From: Enterobacter cloacae complex sp. ECNIH7
GTDB taxonomy: Bacteria > Pseudomonadota > Gammaproteobacteria > Enterobacterales > Enterobacteriaceae
DNA length: 64,000 bases
Assembly: GCF_002208095.1 (NCBI RefSeq)
Contig: NZ_CP017991.1
Span: forward strand, 1 to 64,000
Direction of reading: 5' to 3'
In this document: piece by piece, positions 31,613-46,685 of the stretch
Numbering within the stretch: the first letter of the stretch is position 1
Layout of the letters: every line of letters starts with the position of its first letter
Made by a program: the position numbers and the translations under genes
Notes under the pieces: generated by a model
The model's input: only the letters and a program-made list of their open reading frames with translations
What the model was told of the DNA's origin: nothing
Database searches by the model: none

Positions 31613-32236
31613 ATGTACATTCATGGTTACCTCCGCGCATCAACAAAAGAACAGGATGCTCTCCGAGCAAAAAATCGGATGAAAGCCTTTGTTGAAGAAA
31701 AAGGATTTCGGCTGGCCAGTTGGTACACCGAAAATGTATCCGGGGCATCACTTCAACGGCCAGAACTTTTACGGTTACTTGATGATGCTGCACCTGGTGA
31801 CATTATTCTCATCGAGCAGGTTGATCGCCTTTCGCGCCTGGATGAAGAGGGCTGGCAAAAACTAAAGCATCTTATCCAGGAAAAACACCTTGTGGTTGTC
31901 AGTCTTGACCTCCCAACGAGCCATATGGCTCTTGCAACACATGCTGGCGATGACTTTACCCTTGCAATACTTAAGGCTATTAACGGAATGATGCTTGATA
32001 TGCTGGCCGCCATAGCTCGCAAAGACTATCAGGATCGTCGCCGGCGCCAAGAGGAAGGGATAGCGAAAGCCAAGGTGGCCGGTAAATTTCGGGGACGTCA
32101 GGCAGATCATCAATTGCATGAAAAAATCATAGAGCTTCGGGTTAAAAACAGGCAGAGCATCCGTGATACCGCAAGGTTGTGTGGCGTTTCAGAACGAACG
32201 GTTATACGCATTGTTAAACTCAAAGCATGTTCTTGA
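31613..32236 (+). CDS. tnpR: Serine resolvase TnpR of the Tn3-family element
   Basis: Serine recombinase of 207 residues that resolves cointegrates. The catalytic Ser is in LRASTKEQ (residues 7-14). The conserved Arg motif IEQVDRLSRLDEEGW is followed by the long helix and a C-terminal helix-turn-helix (SIRDTARLCGVSERTVIRIV). The same strand carries tnpA 54 bases later. The likely res site is directly upstream. Confidence 0.88.
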   Translation: MYIHGYLRASTKEQDALRAKNRMKAFVEEKGFRLASWYTENVSGASLQRPELLRLLDDAAPGDIILIEQVDRLSRLDEEGWQKLKHLIQEKHLVVVSLDLPTSHMALATHAGDDFTLAILKAINGMMLDMLAAIARKDYQDRRRRQEEGIAKAKVAGKFRGRQADHQLHEKIIELRVKNRQSIRDTARLCGVSERTVIRIVKLKACS

Positions 32237-32290
32237 TGCGTATATTTTGAACGTCCAAGCGGACAGCGTCCGTATGCAGGGAGAGCATTT

Positions 32291-35275
32291 ATGCCACGGC
32301 GACAGATACTGAGCAGTGATGAAAAAGAACGCTTACTGATTGTGCCGGATGATGACATTCTGCTAACCAGGATGTGCTTTTTAAGTGAGCAGGATCTGGT
32401 CCTCATCAACAAACACCGGAGACCCGCTAACCGCCTGGGCTTTGCCGTTTTACTCTGTTATCTGCGAGGGCCGGGTTTTACTCCAGACAAAAACAGTCTC
32501 CCTCACGATGGCGTTATGTCCAGAGTGGCAGAGAGATTGAAACTTCAACCTGATTTATGGCGAGAGTACGCAACGAGGGAGGAAACCCGTTGGGAGCATC
32601 TTGCCGAACTCTATCGCTACTTGGGATTAGTGCCTTTCAACAGGTCATTGCAAAAAACATGCATCCGCCATTTATATCCGCACGCCATGCGGACCGACAA
32701 AGGCCTGATTCTTGCTGAAGAGATGCTCGCTTGGTTGCACAACAACAACGTTATTTTCCCTTCCGTTGATGTGATGGAGCGAACCCTTGCTGAAGCCGCA
32801 ACACTTGCAGACAGAGCCGTATTTTCTACACTGACGACGCAACTGGAACAACGACATAAAACAGCACTGGATAATCTGCTTGCATCAGGTGATGAGCAAC
32901 TTTCCCGTCTTGCCTGGCTGCTTCAGCCCCCGGGTAAGATTAACGGTAAAAACGTGCTGCAACATATTGATCGGTTGAATGCCATTGAGGGGTTGGCACT
33001 GCCGGAAGGTATTACGCTTTCCGTTCACCAGAACCGACTGCTGAAACTGGCTCGCGAAGGCCGGAAAATGAGTAGCAGGGACCTGGCAAAATTCTCCGGC
33101 ACACGTCGTTATGCCGTGCTGGTTTGTATTATCTCAGAAGCAAGGGCAACGCTTACCGATGAAATCATCGAACTACACGAACGTATCCTGGGTAGCTTGT
33201 TCAGCAGGGCAAAGCGCACACAAGCCGAACGGCTTCAGAAAACAGGAAAACTCATCCAGAGCAAGTTAAGGCAATATCTTACTGTTGGGCAGGCGCTGCT
33301 AAACGCACGGGAGTCAGGAGAAGATCCCTGGGCGGCGATAGAAGACGTACTTCCCTGGCCGGAATTTATCACCAGTCTGGAGGAAACACAGTTTCTGGCC
33401 CGAAAGGATAATTTTGATCCGCTTCATCTGATCACCGAAAAATACAGCACGCTGCGTAAATATGCGCCCCGTATGTTGTCTGCATTGCAGTTCAGTGCAG
33501 CCCCTTCAGCACTGCCACTCGGTGATGCGCTGGATACCGTCAGAGAAATGTACCGCAAACAACTCCGCAAGGTTCCGTCAACAGCGCCAGTAAAGTTTAT
33601 CCCTGAGAGCTGGAAAAAGTTGGTAATAACGCCATCGGGTATCGATCGCCGGTATTATGAATTCTGTGTACTGAATGAGCTGAAAGGCGCATTGCGATCT
33701 GGTGATATCTGGGTTAGAGGATCACGACGCTACAGGAATTTTGACGATTACCTCATTCCTCCTGCTGATTTTGAAAAATCACTCAAAGAGAAACAGTTAC
33801 AGCTTGCCATTCCGACAGACTGCCAGGAATACCTTCACTCCCGTATGACACTGCTGGCGTCGCGACTGGAAGAGGTCAATGCGATGGCGATTGCCGGTGA
33901 TTTGCCTGATGTTGATATATCGGACAAAGGTGTGAAGGTCACGCCTCTTGATAACAGCGTTCCTTCGATTGTATCACCGTTTGCCGACCTGGTTTACGGC
34001 ATGCTGCCGCACCCAAAAATTACCGAGATATTAGATGAAGTGGACAGTTGGACGGGATTTACCCGCCACTTTACTCACCTCAAAAATAATCACGTCAGAC
34101 CAAAAGACAAAAAGCTGTTGCTGACCACCATCCTGGCAGATGGTATCAACCTGGGGCTGACTAAAATGGCAGAATCCTGCCCGGGAACCACAAAAGCGTC
34201 GCTGGAAAGCATTCAGGCATGGTACATCAGGGATGAAACGTATGCAGCCGCGCTTGCCGAACTAGTGAATGCACAAAAAAAGTGCCCACTGGCAGCATCA
34301 TGGGGGGACGGTACAACGTCATCCTCCGACGGCCAGAATTTTCGAGTCGGAAGTCATGGCCGCTATGCCGGACAGGTGAATTTAAAGTACGGTCAGGAAC
34401 CCGGCGTGCAGGTTTATACACATATATCAGACCAATACAGCCCATTTTATACCAAAGTGATCAGCCGGGTCAGGGACTCTACCCATGTGCTGGATGGGTT
34501 GCTCTATCACGAAAGCGACCTGGAAATTACGGAGCATTACACCGATACAGCGGGTTTCACTGAACATGTTTTTGCGCTAATGCATCTACTTGGGTTTGCA
34601 TTTGCACCAAGGATCCGGGATCTCCATGACAAACGGCTATTCATTCATGGAAAGGCGGAAAAATATTCTGGGCTTCAGTCAATCATATCCACGACCAGTC
34701 TGAATCTCAAAGAAATTGAGACACACTGGAATGAGGTACTGCGCCTGGCGACCTCGATCAAGCAGGGCACGGTAACCGCCTCGCTGATGTTAAAAAAGTT
34801 GGCCAGCTACCCCAAACAAAACGGCCTGGCAAAAGCGTTACGGGAAATTGGCCGTATCGAGCGAACGTTGTTTATGCTGGACTGGTTTCGCGATCCGGCC
34901 CTGCGTCGTCGTGTGCAAGCCGGTTTAAATAAGGGTGAAGCCCGCAATGCGCTTGCGCGGGCCGTTTTTATGCACCGGTTGGGCGAAATAAGAGACAGGG
35001 GGCTGGAAAATCAAAGCTATCGCGCCAGCGGGCTGACGCTGTTGACTGCGGCGATCACGTTGTGGAACACGGTGTATATAGAAAGGGCCATCGAATCACT
35101 AAAACGAAAGGGGCTCCAGATTAATGAGCCGTTGGTTTCTCACCTGTCCCCTCTGGGCTGGGAGCATATCAACCTGAGCGGAGATTACATCTGGCGTAAT
35201 AATCTTAAGCTGGGATCCGGTAAATATCGACCGTTACGCACAGTTGATGTCAGTCTGTACAAAAAAGAGGCTTAG
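32291..35275 (+). CDS. tnpA: Tn3-family transposase TnpA
   Basis: DDE transposase of 994 residues, full length for the family. It begins MPRRQILSSDEKERLL and carries the conserved regions AESCPGTTKASLESIQAWYIRDE, WGDGTTSSSDGQNFRVG (first catalytic Asp), HVLDGLLYHESDLEITEHYTDTAGFTEHVFAL (second Asp) and GEARNALARAVFMHRLGEIRDR (Glu), here quoted from separate stretches. It ends 33 bases before the outer end of the transposon. Since the left terminal repeat is gone, the enzyme may be active but the element is not autonomous. Confidence 0.93.
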   Translation: MPRRQILSSDEKERLLIVPDDDILLTRMCFLSEQDLVLINKHRRPANRLGFAVLLCYLRGPGFTPDKNSLPHDGVMSRVAERLKLQPDLWREYATREETRWEHLAELYRYLGLVPFNRSLQKTCIRHLYPHAMRTDKGLILAEEMLAWLHNNNVIFPSVDVMERTLAEAATLADRAVFSTLTTQLEQRHKTALDNLLASGDEQLSRLAWLLQPPGKINGKNVLQHIDRLNAIEGLALPEGITLSVHQNRLLKLAREGRKMSSRDLAKFSGTRRYAVLVCIISEARATLTDEIIELHERILGSLFSRAKRTQAERLQKTGKLIQSKLRQYLTVGQALLNARESGEDPWAAIEDVLPWPEFITSLEETQFLARKDNFDPLHLITEKYSTLRKYAPRMLSALQFSAAPSALPLGDALDTVREMYRKQLRKVPSTAPVKFIPESWKKLVITPSGIDRRYYEFCVLNELKGALRSGDIWVRGSRRYRNFDDYLIPPADFEKSLKEKQLQLAIPTDCQEYLHSRMTLLASRLEEVNAMAIAGDLPDVDISDKGVKVTPLDNSVPSIVSPFADLVYGMLPHPKITEILDEVDSWTGFTRHFTHLKNNHVRPKDKKLLLTTILADGINLGLTKMAESCPGTTKASLESIQAWYIRDETYAAALAELVNAQKKCPLAASWGDGTTSSSDGQNFRVGSHGRYAGQVNLKYGQEPGVQVYTHISDQYSPFYTKVISRVRDSTHVLDGLLYHESDLEITEHYTDTAGFTEHVFALMHLLGFAFAPRIRDLHDKRLFIHGKAEKYSGLQSIISTTSLNLKEIETHWNEVLRLATSIKQGTVTASLMLKKLASYPKQNGLAKALREIGRIERTLFMLDWFRDPALRRRVQAGLNKGEARNALARAVFMHRLGEIRDRGLENQSYRASGLTLLTAAITLWNTVYIERAIESLKRKGLQINEPLVSHLSPLGWEHINLSGDYIWRNNLKLGSGKYRPLRTVDVSLYKKEA

Positions 35276-35308
35276 CGTAGGATATTTTCCGTTTTCCAAG
35301 CGGACCCC
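35271..35308. repeat. Right terminal inverted repeat of the Tn3-family element
   Basis: Reading inward from 35308 the sequence starts GGGGTCCGCTTGGAAAACGG, the Tn3-family pattern. An 11-base copy of its core (TCCAAGCGGAC) also occurs between tnpR and tnpA at 32254-32264. The hsdR reading frame changes identity exactly at this border. Confidence 0.85.
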
Positions 35309-36962
35309 TCTTAGCCACTTGATAGAAGCTGTCGTAGGTGGTGTAGTTCTCCACCACGTCGAGGATGAACTTCTCCTGGATCGCCTGCTTGGTGGTGTAG
35401 GTCAGTTCTTCGGGCGAGCGGGACTGCACCTTGTCACCGACCAGGGTCTTCTCGCCGAACAACTCCAACGTCTTGTTCTTAGGTGTGGCAGTGAACGCGA
35501 AGTAGCTGGCGTTGGCCAACAGTTTGCGCGAGGCAATACGCTTCTCGATTTCCGCGTTGACTGCATCCTGCGTGCTGTCCTCCTCGAACTCCTCCGCAGC
35601 AACCTTGCCGCCGAGGGCTTCGTGCATCCGCGCCGTGGTCTTGCCGCCTTGGCTGGAATGCGCCTCGTCGATCAACAGCGCGAAGCTCTTGCCTGAGAGG
35701 TCGCCCAGCTCATCGAGGATGAACGGGAATTTCTGCACCGTGGTGACGATGATCTTCTTGCCCCGGCGCAGATACTCGCGCAGCTCCTGCGCGTTGTCGG
35801 AGTGGCCGAAGATCGCCGCCACATGGTCATAACCCTTGATGGTGCGGGCGATCTGTGTGTCCAACGCACGCCGGTCGGTGATGACGATGATGGAGTCGAA
35901 CTGCACCGTCAGCGGATCGTCCTTGCGGCGCAGCTCCACCAACTGGTGCGCCAGCCAGGCAATGGTGTTGCTCTTGCCGCTTCCTGCCGAATGCTGGATT
36001 AGGTAACGATTACCCACCCCATCCGCATGGGCGAGGCGCAGAAGGGCTCGCACCGTGCGCAACTGATGGAAGCGTGGGAAGATCTGCTTGCGCTTCTTGC
36101 GTTTCTTGCCGCCAGCGTCCACTTCTTCCTCTTCTACCACCTGCGCGTAGCTCTCGATGATGTTGGCCAGCGACTCGCGAGTCAGCACCTGCTTCCATAG
36201 GTAATCAGTCTTCAGACCATCCGGATTGGGTGGGTTGCCAGCGCCGCTGTTCCAGCCCTGGTTAAATGGCAGGAACCACGAGGCCTTGCCCTTCAGCTCG
36301 GTACAGAACGCAGCCTCCACATCATCCACTGCAATGTGCGCCACACAACGCCCCAACTGGAACAGCAGCTCCTGCGGGCTGCGCGTGGTCTGGTACTGGA
36401 CGATGGCGTCGGCCAGGGTCTGCTTGGTCAGCGAGTTCTTCAACTCGAAAGTCAGCACCGGCAGACCGTTGATGAAGATGGCCAAGTCTAACTCGTTGCC
36501 GGATTCGTTGCTGTAGCGTACCTGTCGGGTAACGCTGAAGATGTTCTTGCCGAAGGCGTCTGCTGCTGCTGCGTTGCCCGGCGTGGGTAGCAGCTTGTAG
36601 AGATCGACGTGTACGGGGCCGTGGCTAACCCCCTTGCGAAGCACATCCACCACACCGCGCTTGGTGATCTCACCTTGCAACCGGTGCAGGAACTGAGTGC
36701 GCTTGATGCCGTCCGCCGCCAGTTCCAGCGTGTCTACTGCCTTGGGCTGGGTGGATTGCAAGAAGGCGAGCAGCTGTGTCACATCCAGCGCCACGTCGCG
36801 GTTGTAGTCGGTGGGCTTGCCCTGCACGTAGCCGTTGTGGGTGGCGGCGAAGTCCGTGGGAGCCAGCTCATGGCTGTACTCGGGCTGCGGCACACCGGTC
36901 AAGCTGCGTACCACGCGCGCCTCGAACCAGCGCTCACTGGTGTCAGTTTTCGCCATCGCCAT
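35309..36962 (-). pseudogene. hsdR: Type I restriction subunit HsdR, C-terminal part cut off by Tn3-family insertion
   Basis: The first 552 residues of the ATP-dependent motor and nuclease subunit of a type I restriction enzyme; full-length HsdR has about 1000. The PD-(D/E)xK nuclease is present (Asp159, then FELK with Glu173 and Lys175), as are Walker A HSAGSGKS (324-331), DEAH (432-435) and the TAT motif (491-493). Motor domain 2 and the C-terminal helical region are missing, replaced by 18 foreign codons from the transposon. Cleavage and translocation should be lost. It overlaps hsdS by 20 bases on the same strand. Confidence 0.9.
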
Positions 36963-38340
36963 CCTCCTCCTCGGTCACATCATCTGGGTCATCGCCGAGC
37001 GCAGCCAGCGCCGTGTCGTCCACCACGTCGTCCGGGCCGGGCTGCCAGCCCCGCACGTCCACTTGGCCTGTGACCACATCGGCAATCAGGCGGTCGCGGT
37101 ATTCGCGGATCAGCTTGATTTCTTCTTCGGTACGGGCGATGGCGTCGTCCAGCGGCTGGCATTCGTCGCTGATCCACCGGCAGATGGCTTTTTGTTCTTC
37201 GATGGGAGGGACGGTGAACGGAATCGTCACGAGCTTTTCGCGCGTCAGGTGCGCGATGCTGACGCGGTTCACGATGGCATTGAAACGGCCACGCTTGCCA
37301 TAGGTGAAAAACTGGTGAAACAGGAATTCCGGCAGCATCATCGGCTTGGCCGCAACCCGATGCACAGAGTTCTGGATGTAGCACTCCGGCAGTTCATCGT
37401 TCCACATGCAGGCCCGACCAACTTCTCCGCCTTCGCTGACCAGCAAGTCACCCTTGCGGACGCGGAGCTGCGCCATCTCAGCTTTGGCTACCCACATTTC
37501 CTTTACGTCGCGCACATCGGGCTTAATCCACTGCACATTCGTGGAGCGCAGGTAGGGCTTGAAATCCCCATCGCCAGCCTTGGCTTCCGTGGTCAGCATC
37601 TTGCCCAAGACCACGTTGGCCACGTTCTTCAGCCTTTGCACTTCCCAGTGCTCCGGTACCTCACCCAGCCATTCGATGCCGGACGGCTTCAGAGCCACCG
37701 ATGAATCAAGGCCGCGCGTGACAGCGTGGTCGATAATTCGCAGCTTCTGTTCGGTGAGCAGCTTGATCAGATCGCGCTTGGTCTTGATGAAGCGGGCCAT
37801 GTGCGCATCCTGAGCGCGCAGGTAAGCGACGATTTGGTCCTGCTCAGGGCGCGGAGGGACAGGAATTGGAATTTGCCCAAACTGGTCAAAATACAGCCGA
37901 AGGCGCATATCCATTATGCCCCTCGACCTTATTTTGAACTGCTGAAGATATTTCTTCGTTCTGAATAGAAAATGATAATAGTCAGTGTTGCATGACTTGA
38001 TTGGCCTCAAAATATCATAAGCTGGGCTGGTAACGCCTTGATAATGGGAGGCGCCAATAGCACCCATCCAAGCAAGGAGCTTGTTGCAAATTATGTCACC
38101 CTCTTTTACAACCCAGTATCCATCGGTTGAAGAAGCTTTATTGCCGCGTTGCTCAAGGCTTTTTCTCGGTCTGACGCCAATATGAGTGTAAACAGATAGC
38201 AACTCCATCTGGTTATTTGCTGGAGCTTTTTCAATGACCAAGCGGAACATTTGCTTGGTACGCAGAATGGCCCACGACTCAGGTAAATATTCAAACCATT
38301 GCAAACCAGTTCGCCAGTAATCCGGATAAGGGCCAAACAT
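36943..38340 (-). CDS. hsdS: Type I restriction specificity subunit HsdS
   Basis: DNA-recognition subunit of 465 residues with two target recognition domains, each starting with the typical LP..W...(R)L pattern (YLPESWAILRTKQMF near 18 and EVPEHWEVQRLKNVA near 232) and each followed by a helical conserved region (RPEQDQIVAYLRAQD at about 166-180, and PPIEEQKAICRWISDE at about 389). It defines the half-sites that are methylated or cut. The C-terminal tail is strongly acidic (DDPDDVTEEEDGDGEN), which is unusual for the family. Its start overlaps the hsdM stop (TAATG). Confidence 0.92.
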   Translation of the reverse strand: MFGPYPDYWRTGLQWFEYLPESWAILRTKQMFRLVIEKAPANNQMELLSVYTHIGVRPRKSLEQRGNKASSTDGYWVVKEGDIICNKLLAWMGAIGASHYQGVTSPAYDILRPIKSCNTDYYHFLFRTKKYLQQFKIRSRGIMDMRLRLYFDQFGQIPIPVPPRPEQDQIVAYLRAQDAHMARFIKTKRDLIKLLTEQKLRIIDHAVTRGLDSSVALKPSGIEWLGEVPEHWEVQRLKNVANVVLGKMLTTEAKAGDGDFKPYLRSTNVQWIKPDVRDVKEMWVAKAEMAQLRVRKGDLLVSEGGEVGRACMWNDELPECYIQNSVHRVAAKPMMLPEFLFHQFFTYGKRGRFNAIVNRVSIAHLTREKLVTIPFTVPPIEEQKAICRWISDECQPLDDAIARTEEEIKLIREYRDRLIADVVTGQVDVRGWQPGPDDVVDDTALAALGDDPDDVTEEEDGDGEN

Positions 38341-40721
38341 TATTTTTCTACCCCCACTATCTTGTGCAGCAACCCCTCGCTTTGCTGCTCCAGAGCGAGG
38401 ATGTCGGCGCGGATTTCGGCCAGCGTGCGCAGTGGTGTGGGCTTGTAGAAGTAGCGGGCAAACGATATCTCATAACCGATCTGGGTCTTGTCGGTAGCGA
38501 TCCAGGCGTCCGGTACATGCGGCAGCACTTCCCGCTCGAAAAACGCATCGATACCACCCGACTCCTTCAGCGGTACCTGCTCGGTATCGCGCAGCTCACT
38601 GTCGGGTTCGTACTCGACCATGAACCGATCCTTGCCCACTGTCTCCAGGTACGCGCCATCGAAGCCGGGCTCAAAGAAGTCGCTCGCCTTGAGTTTGCTG
38701 CGTTTGGCAATGACTGGCGGGGCCGTTTCGTCACGCCAGCTCACAGCTTTGTAGATGGCCTTCTTCTCGGGTGCGCTGAGCTTGTCACCCTGAGCTTTCA
38801 GGGCAGTATCGAAGCGGGTACGGAATTCATTGTGGTCATCGAACACGGCGCTACCTAGAGCTTTTTGCACCCGTTGCGCCACCACCATCAGCGCCTTGTC
38901 GCGCAGCCACGTCGATGCGTCGAGCAGCTTCTTGCGGCGCTTGGCGGGCACGGCCTTACGCGCGGCGGGAGTCTCGCTGTCATCGCCGCTGTCTTCGTTC
39001 TCGTCCTCTTCGTTCTCGTCCTCGCCTTTCAGCCATGCCTCGATGGTCGGCTTGAGCTTGGCGAAATCGGTATAGAGCGCCTCGCCGTGGGTGGCGTAGA
39101 TCTCGGCGCGTATCGCCTCGTCGCCGGTGGCAAAACGCAGGAGTTCGATTCGCTCGTCGGAGAGCTGGCTTTTCAGGCGCAGCGGGCGCTCGACAGTGAT
39201 CTTCCAGTAGCCGAAGTCCTGAGTGTCGAACCATTTCGACTCGGCGGTTTCTTGCGCCTCGCCGAGGTAGATGTCGATGATTCGCTGGATGTCTCCATCC
39301 GAGAGTTCACAATTCTTCTTGCCGAGATTGCGGCGCAGCGGCTGGAACCAGCCACTTGCATCGATCAACTGCACTTTGTCACGACGCGCTTCGGCTTTCT
39401 TGTTGGCCAACACCCAGATATAGGTGGCGATGCCGGTGTTGTAGAAAATGTTGAGCGGCAGGGCGATGATGGCCTCCAGCCAGTCGTTCTCCAGCACCCA
39501 ACGGCGGATGTTACTCTCGCCCTGGCCTGCATCGCCGGTGAACAGCGCGGAGCCATTATGAACCAGCGCGATGCGGCTGCCCAACGGCGTGTGGTGTTTC
39601 ATCTTTTGCAGCTTATTCACCAGGAACATGAGCTGTCCGTCGCTGGAGCGGGTGATAAGCTTGAACTCAGCATTGCCCGCGTGGCTGACGATGAAGCGCT
39701 GGTCATTGAATTCCTTCTTGCCGCCCATGCGCTCCAGATCGGTCTTCCAACTCTTGCCGTAGGGCGGGTTGGAGATCATGAAATCAAATTCGCGCGAACG
39801 GAACTGGTCAGCGGACAGAGTGGACTTATCAGCGCCACCGACGATGTTCTCGGCCTCCTCGCCTTCGCCCTTCAAGAGCAGATCGGCCTTGCAGATGGCG
39901 TAGGTTTCGTCGCTAATTTCTTGCCCGAACAGGTGGATGGAGACTTCCTTGCCATGCTGCCCGGCAAGCTCGTGTAGCGATTCCTCGGCCACGGTGAGCA
40001 TGCCGCCGGTGCCGCAGGAGCCGTCGTAGAGCGAATAGGTGCTAGACTCGATGCGCTCGGCCACAGGAAGGAACAGCAGCTTGGCCATGAGCTGCACCAC
40101 GTCGCGCGGGGTGAAGTGCTCGCCTGCCTCTTCATTGTTATCTTCGTTAAAGCGGCGGATCAGCTCTTCGAACACAGTGCCTATGCCATGGTTGTCCAGC
40201 GGCGGCAGCTTGATGCGGCCGTCGGCATCCTTCACCGGCAACGGCGAGAGATTGACCTCCGGGTCGAGGAAATCTTCAATCAAGTAGCCCAGAACGTGGG
40301 AATCCACCAACTTCTGGATCTGGTTGTGGAAACTGAACTTGGCGAGGATTTCCTGGACGTTGGGCGAAAATCCATCCAGATACGCAATAAAATCATCACG
40401 CAGCCGCTGGCCTGCGGCACTGGCCTTGAGCTTGGCCAGAGTAAATTCCGATACGTTGTAGAAGGCTTGGCCTGCTGCCATACGCAGAGCGCCGTCTTGC
40501 TCGACCACTTTATGGGCATCAAGGAGCTTCTTGCGCTCTAGCACAGCATCTTTCGTCGCCTCTAGCACGGCATCAAGCCGTCGCAGTACGGTGAAGGGCA
40601 GGATCACGTCGCGGTACTTGCCGCGTACATAGACGTCGCGCAAGCGGTCATCGGCAATGTTCCAGATGAAATCGGAAATCCACTTGATCTGGCTTTGGTC
40701 TTGTTGTTGCTTCTTATGCAT
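38340..40721 (-). CDS. hsdM: Type I DNA methyltransferase HsdM
   Basis: N6-adenine methyltransferase subunit, 793 residues. An N-terminal helical HsdM domain is followed by the SAM-binding motif DGSCGTGGML (233-242) and the catalytic NPPY (318-321). The C-terminal 250 residues are an extension with an acidic stretch (GEDENEEDENEDSGDDSE near 565-582) and basic residues, longer than the EcoKI type of about 530. With HsdS it should still methylate DNA even though HsdR is broken, so the locus may now act as an orphan methylase. It lies 11 bases after the DUF262 gene. Confidence 0.92.
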   Translation of the reverse strand: MHKKQQQDQSQIKWISDFIWNIADDRLRDVYVRGKYRDVILPFTVLRRLDAVLEATKDAVLERKKLLDAHKVVEQDGALRMAAGQAFYNVSEFTLAKLKASAAGQRLRDDFIAYLDGFSPNVQEILAKFSFHNQIQKLVDSHVLGYLIEDFLDPEVNLSPLPVKDADGRIKLPPLDNHGIGTVFEELIRRFNEDNNEEAGEHFTPRDVVQLMAKLLFLPVAERIESSTYSLYDGSCGTGGMLTVAEESLHELAGQHGKEVSIHLFGQEISDETYAICKADLLLKGEGEEAENIVGGADKSTLSADQFRSREFDFMISNPPYGKSWKTDLERMGGKKEFNDQRFIVSHAGNAEFKLITRSSDGQLMFLVNKLQKMKHHTPLGSRIALVHNGSALFTGDAGQGESNIRRWVLENDWLEAIIALPLNIFYNTGIATYIWVLANKKAEARRDKVQLIDASGWFQPLRRNLGKKNCELSDGDIQRIIDIYLGEAQETAESKWFDTQDFGYWKITVERPLRLKSQLSDERIELLRFATGDEAIRAEIYATHGEALYTDFAKLKPTIEAWLKGEDENEEDENEDSGDDSETPAARKAVPAKRRKKLLDASTWLRDKALMVVAQRVQKALGSAVFDDHNEFRTRFDTALKAQGDKLSAPEKKAIYKAVSWRDETAPPVIAKRSKLKASDFFEPGFDGAYLETVGKDRFMVEYEPDSELRDTEQVPLKESGGIDAFFEREVLPHVPDAWIATDKTQIGYEISFARYFYKPTPLRTLAEIRADILALEQQSEGLLHKIVGVEK

Positions 40722-40732
40722 CGATACTTACC

Positions 40733-42463
40733 TTAATTCGCCGCTGAGGCGCTGGCATTGTCTGTGGTGACGGCGAGTTTCCAATGATTTTTGAGTTCGC
40801 CCATCAGGCGTTTCTGACGCTCAGCCAGAAGGTTGGGTGTCCACTCGTTTTCTGACCTGACTTCCTGCGTTAGCACGAAGGGCGACGCCTTGCCCTTACC
40901 CCTGAAGTAGGCATCCTTCTTCTTGGAAAAGTCGTAGTTGCTGGCAGATGAGTTCTTGTTCCTATCCAGCGGAACTAGATTGGCCAAACGGTGCGTCCAG
41001 CAATCTCGCTCGTCTTCATCCGGGAACCACTTGATCCAGTCCGAACCGTCAGGCGGGTTTTGCGGCAGCACATGCTCCAGCGACACGGCGTTTTGCAGCT
41101 GCACTCCAGGGGCTCGAACCAGAGATTCGAGACGTAAAACCAGTGCCATGCGGGCTTTGGGCAGGTTGCGGTAGATATCTCCGTCGAGAGCAGCCACGAA
41201 ATCTCGCTTCTGTTTGTCTGTAAGTGCCAGAGTGCCCAAGGTGACTAGATCGCCGTCGAAGGCCGTGGACTCGATGTCTTTAATGAGCGCAGCGTAGGTT
41301 TCGATGCGTTCGTTGATACCCACCTTTGTAACCAACATGAAATAGGTAAGGCGTTCTAGTGATTGGAAGAATTCTGCGAGCAATTTTGGTTTTTGCCGGA
41401 ATCGCTTGAAATACACCAGTGCCGGGGGTACCCAGTCCTTGAAGTCCACGCGGTTGAGCCAGAACAGGTGCTCGTTGATCGTCTCGGCGTGCTCGGTCGC
41501 CTCAAAGTCAGCGTCGCGCACGAAGTCCCATACTTCTGCGTAAGGTTTGATGACGGAGTCGATCAGGGCGATAGGGTTATTGTACTCGGTGACGTGCTCT
41601 TGGAATTCTTTGACCAAAATGTACTTCTGCTTCTTCTTCGCATAGATGCTACGGATGTGACCGAACAGATCACCAAAGGCGTCACGGCCCAGTGAGGTTT
41701 CGATGCGACTCCACTCCTTGGCATAGACCCGACTCTTAATGTCGCCTGCCGTGGTGCGGATTAGGCCCAGAACCTGCGCCTTGATGATGTCGATAGGCGC
41801 GAGGTCAAGCCCCCGATTATTGAGCACGGAAAAGATGCGGTAGGCAGCTTCAAGATCGGGCGTGGAGATAACAACCAGCGAGCAGTCGTTGGCCAGGAAC
41901 TGCCACAGTGCGCTCAGATCGGCGGGCGGTAGCGCCTTGGCTTTGGCAAGCAGCAGCGTGGCGTTTTCGCGGTATCGAAGTCGGCTGTCTTCCAGCTTGT
42001 CGGTGCTAGTGACCAACTGTGCGATGCCGCCCGGCTCTTGAATGTTGGTGCGAAAGAAGTCGGCATCCTCCTCGCGGGCGGTCAGGCGGTATTCATTTTT
42101 CTCGCCGAGGCTGACCTTGCCCTTCTTGTAGAGGAAATCGGTGATGTCGTCGGCTGCGTGCGGCATGGCCTCGCGCAGCACTGCAAACAGCATCGTCAGC
42201 GTCGACAGGCGCTGCTGGCCATCGACCACCGACGATTTGGGCTCTCGGTCGTTCTTGATCAGAACGATACTGCCGAGGAAGTATTGGCTGGTTGCACCGG
42301 AGACACGCGCATCCAGCATCGCCGAGTGCAGATCATCGAACAGCTCTGTGGCCTGCTCGGTTGTCCAGGCATAGGGACGCTGGTAGTCCGGAATCTCGAA
42401 CTGGTAGCTGCCTTCGAAGATCTCGCGGATCAGTTTGTCGTGGGCTTCAAGTGTCTTGGCCAT
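40733..42463 (-). CDS. DUF262/DUF1524 (GmrSD-like) protein
   Basis: A 576-residue protein with an N-terminal DUF262 domain: IPDYQRPYAW at 24-33 and the nucleotide-binding VDGQQRLST at 80-88. A C-terminal DUF1524 His-Me finger nuclease domain follows: EHVLPQNP at 463-470, HRLANLVPLDRNKN at 491-504 and SNYDFSKKKDAY at 508-519. This is the architecture of fused GmrSD type IV restriction enzymes, which cleave modified phage DNA, and of related DUF262 defence proteins such as BrxU. It is encoded between the WYL regulator and hsdM with gaps of 14 and 11 bases, so it is part of one operon with the type I system. All expected catalytic residues appear intact. Confidence 0.88.
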   Translation of the reverse strand: MAKTLEAHDKLIREIFEGSYQFEIPDYQRPYAWTTEQATELFDDLHSAMLDARVSGATSQYFLGSIVLIKNDREPKSSVVDGQQRLSTLTMLFAVLREAMPHAADDITDFLYKKGKVSLGEKNEYRLTAREEDADFFRTNIQEPGGIAQLVTSTDKLEDSRLRYRENATLLLAKAKALPPADLSALWQFLANDCSLVVISTPDLEAAYRIFSVLNNRGLDLAPIDIIKAQVLGLIRTTAGDIKSRVYAKEWSRIETSLGRDAFGDLFGHIRSIYAKKKQKYILVKEFQEHVTEYNNPIALIDSVIKPYAEVWDFVRDADFEATEHAETINEHLFWLNRVDFKDWVPPALVYFKRFRQKPKLLAEFFQSLERLTYFMLVTKVGINERIETYAALIKDIESTAFDGDLVTLGTLALTDKQKRDFVAALDGDIYRNLPKARMALVLRLESLVRAPGVQLQNAVSLEHVLPQNPPDGSDWIKWFPDEDERDCWTHRLANLVPLDRNKNSSASNYDFSKKKDAYFRGKGKASPFVLTQEVRSENEWTPNLLAERQKRLMGELKNHWKLAVTTDNASASAAN

Positions 42464-42477
42464 TGTTTTCCTCTTTC

Positions 42478-43386
42478 CTATGATTCCTTGGAACTGCTCA
42501 GGGCTTGGTATCCTGGAGCCAGCTTGGCGCTCTCGACTCCGTACAGCACCAGCGGATCGCTAAGCCATAGGCGATACTGTTCTTCTTTGAGGCGATGGTC
42601 AGGCGAGCAGTCCACGCTCCAGTGCAGCAGCATGTAGCCCACAACAGCAGCCCGCACGCGCATCTTGATCGACCCGTTGGTCATCCCGTAGTCCATCTTG
42701 ATGACCTCGGGACGCGCAAAGCGCGGATGAGGCACTAAGTCCAACTCCACGATCCGAGTCCACTGAATGTCGTTGTCCGAACGCTCGTTAGCCTTGGGTT
42801 CTTCATCAAGCAGGATAGGCGCTTCAATGCGGGTGACAACGAAGTCGCGGAACTCGCCACTCTTGCGATCAAAAGCTCGGACGTGCCAGCGCAGGCCGGT
42901 ATCGACCAGCGCAAAGGGCACAATGATCCGCTCGGTCTCACCGCTGCTCATTGAGTGGTAGCGGATGGCTACTGGCCGCTTGGCGTGGATAGCCCGGCAG
43001 ATTGGGGCCAGCACATCCATCCGTGGGCAGCTCAAAGCCACTGGAGACTCGCATGGCAGCAGCGGCCGCGAGTCGACGTTCACTCCATCTCCAAACCCAA
43101 GCGCGAGTGTCGACAAAACACGTTGCGTCGAGTGCTCGAAAATTGGAACAAACGCCTTGCCTATGCGGTAGATCTTGTTGCTACCATCGAATTCAATGTT
43201 CTGCGGTGCGATTTCCCGGTAAAGAGCCAGATCGCGAGTTGCCCCTGCCGGCGCCACACCGAAGCGCTCAATCAGGTCTGGGCGCCCAATATCACCGAAG
43301 AAGTAGAGCTGGAAGTCGATGTAGGCCAGCCGCTCGCGCTGGGCAAGGCTCAAATCCTCGACCCGTTTAGAGGGTGAACTAATCAT
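42478..43386 (-). CDS. WYL-domain transcriptional regulator (BrxR/CapW-like)
   Basis: A 302-residue regulator: a winged-helix DNA-binding region (about 15-75, AYIDFQLYFFGDIGRPDLIE followed by RFGVAPAGATRDLALYRE), a WYL ligand-binding domain (about 125-200, including RWHVRAFDRKSGEFRDFVVTRI) and a C-terminal WCX extension. This is the layout of BrxR/CapW repressors that control BREX, CBASS and other defence operons, probably by sensing a nucleic-acid or nucleotide signal. It is the first gene of the minus-strand operon. A perfect palindrome upstream (43433-43442) is a candidate operator. No good Shine-Dalgarno is visible before the ATG at 43386. Confidence 0.88.
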   Translation of the reverse strand: MISSPSKRVEDLSLAQRERLAYIDFQLYFFGDIGRPDLIERFGVAPAGATRDLALYREIAPQNIEFDGSNKIYRIGKAFVPIFEHSTQRVLSTLALGFGDGVNVDSRPLLPCESPVALSCPRMDVLAPICRAIHAKRPVAIRYHSMSSGETERIIVPFALVDTGLRWHVRAFDRKSGEFRDFVVTRIEAPILLDEEPKANERSDNDIQWTRIVELDLVPHPRFARPEVIKMDYGMTNGSIKMRVRAAVVGYMLLHWSVDCSPDHRLKEEQYRLWLSDPLVLYGVESAKLAPGYQALSSSKES

Positions 43387-43549
43387 GTGCCGCAGCTATG
43401 AAATGAAAGGAGAATGTAGTGATGTGATCCATATAGCGCTATTGTTATCATCAAATTGATTACAATCATGCACCATCTTTACTATAACAACAAGATATAA
43501 AGCCTCAAACGTAGACATAGTTCGTCTTGTATTAAATCTCTTCAATACG
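43387..43549 (-). promoter_or_regulatory. Promoter region of the WYL-DUF262-hsd operon
   Basis: An AT-rich stretch between the tnsE remnant and the WYL gene, unlike the GC-rich operon it precedes. It contains the perfect 10-base palindrome ATAGCGCTAT (43433-43442), about 47 bases before the start codon, overlapping a possible promoter (TTGATG about 15 bases upstream of TATGGA on the minus strand). It is the natural place for WYL autoregulation. Confidence 0.45.
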
Positions 43550-43876
43550 TTAGATTGATGTCATCCAACTGTGAAATCTTGCCGCCCAGTGCTCTGTCGA
43601 CTCCTCATGCAACTTGCCCTTATCCACGGATTTGGTCTGCGGGTGAGGAATGCCGGAATAGCCATCCTTGCCGCAGAGCATTTTTAACCGCTGATTTGGC
43701 CAGTGCAGTGATTTCTGGGTTAACTCTTCTGCCAACAGCGTAAGCTGCTTGGGCCAATCCAGAGGCGACTTCAGCCGTAATAGCAAAGTTGATAGAGAAC
43801 AAACACCGTCAGATGTATCGACTTCTAGGATATAGAAGGTGCGGCCCTGCAACTCCACCTCAACAACGGCCAGGCA
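43550..43876 (-). pseudogene. TnsE C-terminal fragment (Tn7-like transposition protein)
   Basis: About 108 codons that I recognise as the C-terminus of TnsE, the Tn7 protein directing insertion into replicating and conjugating DNA. Matching features in the same order as Tn7 TnsE: LEVDTSDGV followed by LST, then SLHWPN, GKDGYSG, HPQ and a closing W-A-R segment (EHWAARFHSW). The frame is closed upstream by a stop at about 43880, and no earlier TnsE sequence follows. The N-terminal four fifths are therefore missing, apparently lost where the IncFII replicon was joined. It points the same way as the WYL-hsd operon behind it, as cargo next to tnsE would. Confidence 0.65.
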
Positions 43877-46647: not shown

Positions 46648-46685
46648 GGGGTCGTCTCAGAAAACGGAAAATAAAGCACGCTAAG
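46648..46685. repeat. Left terminal inverted repeat of the Tn21-subgroup transposon
   Basis: A 38-base Tn21-type repeat starting GGGGTCGTCTCAGAAAACGG and ending in CACGCTAAG. It borders copB upstream sequence on the left. The stop codon of the adjoining recombinase gene lies inside its last bases. Two further copies in the same orientation occur at 49880 and 55308. Confidence 0.9.

Follow-up and report, generated by a model that had tools for sequence, protein, structure and literature searches.

Do a type IV nuclease gene and a type I restriction-modification (R-M) operon that share one regulator gene form a single defence machine, a set of exchangeable parts or chance neighbours? The question is raised by the 64,000 nucleotides of Enterobacter cloacae complex sp. 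ECNIH7 analysed here (contig NZ_CP017991.1, positions 1 to 64,000; hereafter the window), in which five minus-strand open reading frames (ORFs), running from 43386 down to 35309, encode a WYL regulator, a fused DUF262/DUF1524 protein of the GmrSD type, HsdM, HsdS and a fragment of HsdR. An earlier reading of the DNA letters (the sequence-only reading) had suggested that the combination may be a single, distinct composite system. We favour another explanation, to which we give a probability of roughly two in three: the locus would belong to a recurring, modular type of defence operon under BrxR repression, of which this plasmid carries a decayed copy and in which a type I system that can be exchanged is complemented by a type IV enzyme acting autonomously. 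It looks like a modular arrangement and not like one new enzyme machine, as judged from gene order, family membership, truncation, conservation of a promoter with its palindrome, exchange of modules and sequence motifs.

The operon of the window and its relatives

The five genes are tightly packed on one strand, as had been noted before, with gaps of 14 bp (WYL to GmrSD) and 11 bp (GmrSD to HsdM) and overlaps of 1 bp (HsdM/HsdS) and 20 bp (HsdS/HsdR). The identities proposed for the fused DUF262/DUF1524, hsdM and hsdS genes were borne out by Pfam, all models scoring above their curated cut-offs (WYL; GmrSD_N and GmrSD_C; HsdM_N and N6_Mtase; Methylase_S; HSDR_N and SWI2_SNF2). PADLOC, run on the window proteins, assigned type I methyltransferase, specificity and endonuclease models to the Hsd proteins and GmrSD-like models to the DUF262 protein, for which Orf5 (487 bits) and HEC-06 (218 bits) were the best matches, a likeness at the level of the protein model only. 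This protein combines a DUF262 domain with DGQQR and a DUF1524 domain with its His-metal motif, and YQRPY, DGQQR, FSVLN and EHVLPQ are present in it and in 23/23 aligned sequences. A search of PDB sequences matched it to DUF262 chains and to SspE (E 2.2e-6), with BrxU not among the matches at E 0.001; its AlphaFold model, built on an alignment of 23 sequences all at least 82% identical, was poor (predicted local distance difference test score of 46.6). The regulator is BrxR/CapW-like, as proposed, since it matched PDB entries 7qfz over residues 9–294 (E 8.5e-87), BrxR 7t8k (E 1.6e-20) and the CapW entries 9c5g/7tb6, its homologues (the 120 listed of 5510, 84–99% identity) carry PF26109, PF13280 and PF26107, and an inverted repeat, its putative site, lies at the promoter of its own gene. 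We take PF26109 and PF26107 to be the N- and C-terminal parts of BrxR. HsdM and HsdS had been described as having unusual acidic C-terminal stretches: the tail of HsdS is truly terminal, though variable among homologues, but the HsdM stretch (at least 10 more acidic than basic residues per 25) is internal, starting at residue 559 of 793, and is a family trait, starting at residues 545–569 in 27/27 HsdM scanned, including that of L001, which is identical to the window's.

Decay is seen in hsdR. The gene does belong to the operon, as proposed, with its HSDR_N and SWI2_SNF2 domains, but only as a 5' fragment: it agrees with the intact 1025-residue ORF of L001 (L001:10577-13648) for 551 residues and then runs into the end of a Tn3-family element. 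The fragment retains the nuclease motif, Walker A, DEAH and TAT and lacks the last 474 residues, because of which type I restriction from the window copy should be dead. HsdR is complete in relatives such as L001, L016 and L031. Homology to other plasmids begins at 35309 (query base 110), exactly beside the terminal inverted repeat, which is also where the sequence-only reading had placed the left end of the operon. The missing 1.4 kb of 3' hsdR had no match anywhere in the whole genome, a weak negative since the query lacked a positive control, and no partner repeat for the far side of the element was found in the window at up to 8 mismatches in 25, save one 8-mismatch match inside the recombinase gene. 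Intact copies of the operon occur on other enterobacterial plasmids, such as the IncFIB/IncFII plasmids L001, L003 and L004, where all five genes are complete and lie beside repA.

A scan of GTDB genomes with the GmrSD alignment returned 50 loci; in 39 the GmrSD match reached 60% identity and 90% coverage, and the 38 of these with at least 700 bp downstream were assessed (L021 was left out). Random neighbours, the outcome that would have counted against the sequence-only reading, were not what we found: a type I hsdM lies within 100 bp downstream on the same strand in 30/38 loci, across Pseudomonadota, and a BrxR/CapW-type WYL gene lies upstream in 26 of those 30, next to GmrSD in 21 (among them L046, a fragment only, and L033, 51% and with stops). 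The gap between the WYL stop and GmrSD is 15–18 bp in 20/21 plus-strand loci where both adjoin. The remaining five have a divergent WYL gene (WYL55), then an Hhe-like gene of about 1800 residues and then GmrSD, and four of the 30 lack WYL, L024 among these beginning at a contig edge. Twenty-six of the 30 hsdM genes belong to the family of the window and four to a second family (L012, L014, L019, L026); a contig end cuts the gene in L012, L020, L028 and L029, and only a fragment is present in L022 and L033.

Other genes were seen in these neighbourhoods. An Hhe/PDC-S37-like DUF4011-helicase-nuclease protein lies between the divergent WYL gene and GmrSD in L015:3519-8963 and six other loci. Beside the WYL gene of L012 (2388-7949), DUF3375, DUF4194 and SbcC-like genes, presumably a Wadjet-like system, are oriented divergently. 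Matches in L054, L055, L056, L057 and L059 are confined to the first 37–120 GmrSD residues and are followed by unrelated genes, giving recurrent breakpoints near the GmrSD start.

Exchange of the type I block and occurrence of GmrSD

To judge by protein and DNA comparisons, three type I families fill the same slot and, in one pair of loci, the whole of hsdMSR is exchanged between near-identical flanks, which is new here. L011 and L014 are 96% identical in GmrSD, 91% in SLATT, 98% in CD-NTase and 95% in C5, a protein encoded after hsdR, and 55% in WYL; their hsdMSR genes differ in family, being of the first in L011 and of the second in L014 (whose HsdM is 26% identical to that of the window over half its length). 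At the DNA level the two loci are 96% identical over a stretch that starts 15 bp ahead of GmrSD and stops about 60 bp short of its end, and identity resumes at 94% about 40 bp inside SLATT. The DNA of L014 and L019 is 91–96% identical from a point within WYL, interrupted once inside hsdS, and their CD-NTases are 82% identical. Furthermore, SLATT, CD-NTase and/or C5 come next in 15 of the 21 loci where hsdR is complete and followed by 400 bp or more of sequence (among these 21 is L039, where a contig end cuts GmrSD). On a smaller scale, a second allele group of the plasmid operon (for instance L003) is 80% identical in HsdS and 97–100% in WYL, GmrSD, HsdM and HsdR, a divergence of HsdS alone that is as expected for a specificity swap.

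Protein distances between HsdM and HsdR were strongly correlated (r 0.96, 22 loci), with r 0.38 for GmrSD and HsdR (19 loci) and r 0.02 for WYL and GmrSD once the divergent WYL clade was added (28 loci). The sets also contain plasmid loci L001–L003 and class-sample loci L091–L093, L106 and L107; sequences with more than two stops were dropped (WYL of L033, GmrSD of L051, HsdM of L043, HsdR of L013, SLATT of L002), and the HsdM–HsdR value was 0.15 before frame-shifted rows were removed.

Also new here is that some loci match in all but GmrSD, which they lack, that GmrSD can stand without type I genes and that it has been kept on plasmids from which hsdS and hsdR are missing. Eight of the 38 GmrSD loci have no hsdM next door (L025, L032, L035, L036, L037, L040, L051, L052), and a complete WYL gene was found in none of the eight by tblastn with two WYL proteins at E 1e-6, a search that could miss more distant WYL genes; the neighbouring genes scanned exclude those of L032 and those upstream in L040. 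The GmrSD gene of L037 is flanked by housekeeping genes (enoyl-CoA hydratase, biotin carboxylase), that of L035 is preceded by TatD and that of L052 by a DUF4145/HSDR_N-like protein; near it lie Res-type and methyltransferase genes (L036) or helicase, AIPR and methyltransferase genes (L025).

In a sample of 369 genomes of the class, HsdM was found at E <= 1e-100 in 35, counting the genome of the window, and four foreign genomes (G303, G136, G334, G125) carry a close HsdM (at least 80% identity, near full length). GmrSD at 70% identity or more occurs in two foreign genomes, G277 and G334, each with a type I hsdM adjoining; the HsdM of G277 (L106) is of a third family, 27% identical to that of the second. 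WYL at 85% likewise occurs in two foreign genomes, G277 and G332, the latter (L107) carrying a type I operon like that of G277 without GmrSD. GmrSD is a presence/absence module in this pair, because the DNA of L106 and L107 is alignable both before (82%) and after (88%) it. Type I genes without GmrSD were also seen in L002, L091 and L093; L002, an Aeromonas plasmid, has WYL, a 63-residue GmrSD remnant and then hsdMSR.

On plasmids, 24 PLSDB records cover at least 80% of the 8.4-kb query, and at least 80% of WYL plus GmrSD, of hsdM and of hsdR is held by 78, 78 and 22 records, respectively. Fifteen (H26–H40) of the 40 operon-query plasmid matches listed hold only WYL, GmrSD and an hsdM without its end, and no hsdS or hsdR, and the same 221 bases are missing from hsdM in 16 (H97–H112) of the best 40 of 81 plasmid records. 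In pKPX-1, the one such record inspected, the cut hsdM adjoins an IS3000-type transposase gene; the annotation gives WYL and GmrSD as complete, with NDM-1 next in line. The idea of a single, indivisible composite system was thus not supported: eight of the 38 GmrSD loci lack an adjoining hsdM, L002 and L107 lack GmrSD, as do three of four close HsdM relatives, and unrelated families take the place of the type I module while the flanks stay the same.

The genes that flank or interrupt the type I block deserve a separate description. A CD-NTase plus effector, the hallmark of a cyclic oligonucleotide-based antiphage signalling system (CBASS), was found in the relative L014 and not in the window: SMODS scored over its cut-off, and PADLOC gave 395 bits for the cyclase and 253 bits for a 2TM effector, with SLATT_4 below its Pfam cut-off (21.7 of 27). 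C5, of about 315 residues, follows hsdR in L014:10369-11316 and 11 other loci; it had no match in Pfam or PADLOC, and a PDB profile search gave nothing credible (best E 0.97). By eye only, its N-terminal part is helix-turn-helix (HTH)-like and a YPDVV...FEAK stretch may be a PD-(D/E)XK nuclease motif, and we presume a likeness to HrgA/COG2958. A NADAR domain and HsdS share one open frame between hsdM and hsdR in L034:13618-16167, L041:13699-16161, L017:13972-16281 and L049:13567-16359, with a PRTase-CE gene ahead of that frame in L017. Genes inserted between hsdS and hsdR encode a RhuM family protein, a 445-residue protein with no assigned family and DUF1828/DUF1829 (L013:14460-15635; L018:14590-15927; L049:16712-17551). 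L095:8878-9843 resembles GmrSD distantly (27% over 56% of the query) and lies between hsdM and hsdS of a type I operon, the HsdM there being 61% identical to the window's; to judge by this position, it marks another insertion place for a GmrSD-like gene.

Promoter and palindrome of the regulator gene

Upstream of the WYL gene a putative promoter abuts a 15-bp palindrome, the candidate operator (Table 1), an arrangement that by our counts is conserved in the window and most relatives, is absent from the divergent WYL clade and is new here. The palindrome, with at most two mismatches, was found in 23/28 WYL-clade loci, in 0/8 WYL55-clade loci and in 11/1160 pieces drawn at random from these loci, a background that may itself take in parts of true sites. 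A YATDAT hexamer stands 0–4 bp before it in 22/27 loci against 0.85% of shuffles, and the full layout, TTG followed after 16–18 bp by a -10 abutting the palindrome, in 21/27 loci (17/23 distinct upstream sequences) against 0.08% of shuffles; this count omits L028, L029 and L033 and admits sites with three mismatches. Among the window and the 22 fetched loci or plasmids that have a site upstream of WYL, 18 show no other such match. This layout suits a repressor that covers the transcription start, in line with published work on BrxR, the repeats of which are situated just downstream of the promoter (PMC9122601).

Table 1 Features of the operon and its surroundings in the window.
Feature	Position	Strand	Details
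BrxR/CapW-family WYL transcriptional regulator	42478..43386	-	302 residues; Pfam PF13280; PDB sequence matches
GmrSD-type single-chain type IV restriction endonuclease (predicted)	40733..42463	-	576 residues; PF03235 and PF07510 above cut-off
HsdM	38340..40721	-	793 residues; motifs DGSCGTG and NPPY; internal acidic linker
HsdS	36943..38340	-	465 residues; two Methylase_S stretches; acidic tail overlaps hsdR start
hsdR 5' part	35309..36962	-	551/1025 residues; within ORF 35250-36962
-35-like element	43488..43493	-	TTGTTG; 17 bp from -10
-10-like element	43465..43470	-	CATGAT; 2 bp from palindrome
Palindrome, putative operator of WYL protein	43448..43462	-	15 bp; TAATCAATTTGATGA; consensus TCATCAAnTTGATGA
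Terminal inverted repeat of Tn3-family element ending hsdR	35272..35308	-	37 bp
Tn3-family element genes	31613..35275	+	recombinase 31613-32236 (Resolvase PF00239); Tn3 transposase 32291-35275 (PF01526)
TnsE C-terminal remnant, upstream of operon	43550..43858	-	PF18623; same neighbour annotated in L001, L003 and L004

Proposed mechanism, alternatives and known systems

In intact relatives, from what is known of these families, a WYL dimer bound to the palindrome abutting the -10 would hold the operon low until phage infection or a nucleic-acid signal lifted the repression. HsdM and HsdS would methylate the host DNA and HsdR would cleave unmethylated incoming DNA, while the single-chain GmrSD, using nucleoside triphosphates, would act alone on phages whose hypermodified cytosines make their DNA unreadable to type I enzymes. 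As an exchangeable cassette, hsdMSR would lie between GmrSD and, at its far end, SLATT/CD-NTase plus a putative nuclease. In the window copy the regulator, GmrSD and the methyltransferase could still work, and type I restriction could not. Repression, the substrate and autonomy of GmrSD, and complementarity are the parts that we infer; autonomy is argued from GmrSD copies that have no restriction genes beside them, from the three families to which the type I partners belong and from the persistence of GmrSD where hsd genes were lost, the last argument being weakened because resistance plasmids spread clonally.

SspE depends on a host phosphorothioate mark and PrrC senses type I inhibition, and GmrSD could similarly be part of one coupled machine, reading or needing the HsdM-HsdS methyl mark or sensing inhibition of the type I enzyme. 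Its place directly before a type I methyltransferase gene in 30/38 loci, the other methyltransferase genes near it in L025 and L036, the SspE match and the correlation of GmrSD and HsdM distances would suit such coupling, which we nevertheless hold to be quite improbable, as the same GmrSD clade is served by three type I families, GmrSD stands without restriction genes in L035 and L037, type I genes stand without GmrSD in four loci (L002, L091, L093, L107) and GmrSD is kept on plasmids without hsdS and hsdR (15/40 matches listed). At the other extreme, the locus may be a defence island with no functional coupling, where independent systems share a promoter only through cassettes landing at one recombination-prone spot; Hhe, CBASS-like, RhuM, PRTase-CE, NADAR and Wadjet genes do vary among the same loci, and breakpoints fall near gene edges and also within WYL or hsdS. 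This is unlikely in our view, since order, strand and the 15–18 bp WYL–GmrSD spacing are kept across distant hosts, no GmrSD copy without hsdM (0/8) has a complete WYL gene and the palindrome tracks the regulator clade. It is doubtful, too, that the window operon is mere passenger debris of the plasmid with no present function: hsdR is truncated there, transposon remnants lie around it and hsdR is at least 80% complete in just 22 plasmid records, but WYL, GmrSD, HsdM and HsdS are uninterrupted, and the GmrSD and HsdM motifs and the promoter with its palindrome are kept.

Several results weigh against the modular operon that we favour. The 38 loci were found by a GmrSD search, and viewed from HsdM the link is one-sided, GmrSD adjoining one of the four close foreign HsdM genes, that of G334 (L092), with upstream sequence in G303 limited to about 1.5 kb. 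Clonal spread along with resistance genes contributes to the plasmid counts, and retention of GmrSD is no proof of selection. GmrSD distances correlate with those of HsdM (r 0.40, p 0.0002, 23 loci) and of the main WYL clade (r 0.57, p 0.0002, 21 loci), which reflects either common descent or partial coupling. The palindrome is weak or absent in 5/28 loci (L033, L023, L026, L017, L043), has extra matches with one or two mismatches in L038, L049, L058, L106 and at window 32107, and is represented in L030, L048 and L093 by one weak match, with no site upstream of WYL. Promoter-like matches in the region numbered 6 against 3.8 expected from shuffles, which is no excess, and the promoter scan's own match (43481-43508) differs from the proposed promoter but overlaps it.

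As a tentative extension of the modular operon, possible rather than expected, we consider a shell-and-core locus. An autorepressed BrxR promoter would drive a shell (GmrSD in front, CD-NTase/SLATT and the HTH-nuclease-like protein behind) around type I cores of unrelated families, swapped by homologous recombination through the shell genes, and the shell may act as a guard when the core is blocked or evaded by phages. If so, lineages would acquire a new specificity, or even an enzyme of another family, without losing the regulator or the anti-modification and backup layers.

GmrSD in type I loci and the idea of complementarity are already published, in reports on RloF, TgvAB and BrxU. TgvAB, in Vibrio pathogenicity island 2 (VPI-2), likewise places type IV genes of the GmrSD family within a type I R-M operon of five genes, and complementarity against modified and unmodified phages was proposed for it; there two proteins lie between hsdS and hsdR, whereas here a single-chain GmrSD lies between WYL and hsdM (PMC11411939). 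Membership of TgvAB was ruled out on these grounds, with one DUF262 protein, upstream of hsdM. Elsewhere in the VPI-2 defence region, a WYL protein, VC1772, lies upstream of the ddmDE operon (PMC12409362). In Campylobacter, RloF is also a DUF262 protein inside a type I locus, placed between hsdS and hsdR, and type I domains are the commonest defence neighbours of GmrSD (PMC4619093); the word WYL is used neither in the text of this paper nor in that of PMC11411939. The pEFER island, BrxR-BREX-BrxU, resembles the present locus in being on a plasmid and in having a BrxR repressor and a GmrSD-type nuclease beside a methylation-based system, but that system is bacteriophage exclusion (BREX) and the repeats are of 11 bp with a 5-bp spacer, compared with type I R-M and a 15-bp palindrome 0–4 bp from the -10; BrxR homologues were found beside type I systems in 34/210 cases and type IV in 37/210 (PMC9122601). 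In the RptR-RMS-DarTG-M48 island the first gene similarly represses a type I operon in which a second system is nested, and palindromes lie at the -10, although RptR is a small helical repressor and not a WYL protein, and DarTG2 takes the place of GmrSD (PMC12255303). The methylation-associated defence system MADS (mad1-8) was rejected as well, the MAD2 and MAD5 equivalogs scoring 40 bits against a cut-off of 720 and 28 against 400.

No account of the WYL-GmrSD-hsdMSR order, of its promoter with palindrome or of whole type I operons being exchanged within conserved flanks was encountered in the literature searched, which was chiefly open-access, with most subscription papers and bioRxiv outside it. 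Should the modular reading hold, a whole restriction enzyme, beyond its specificity subunit, would be refreshed by swapping between conserved partner genes under one repressor, and the loci would form a natural series (same flanks with different cores, with or without GmrSD, with or without the CBASS-like pair) for a direct test of type I/type IV complementarity, with a predicted operator of shared control.

The remainder of the window yielded two minor observations. Silver and copper resistance genes (sil, pco) lie at 1-25000, a region that matches at least 5000 plasmid records. Inverted-repeat-like starts at 46648, 49880 and 55308 differ from the repeat at 35308 by 4–5 mismatches in 25 and are probably the ends of other Tn3-family elements.

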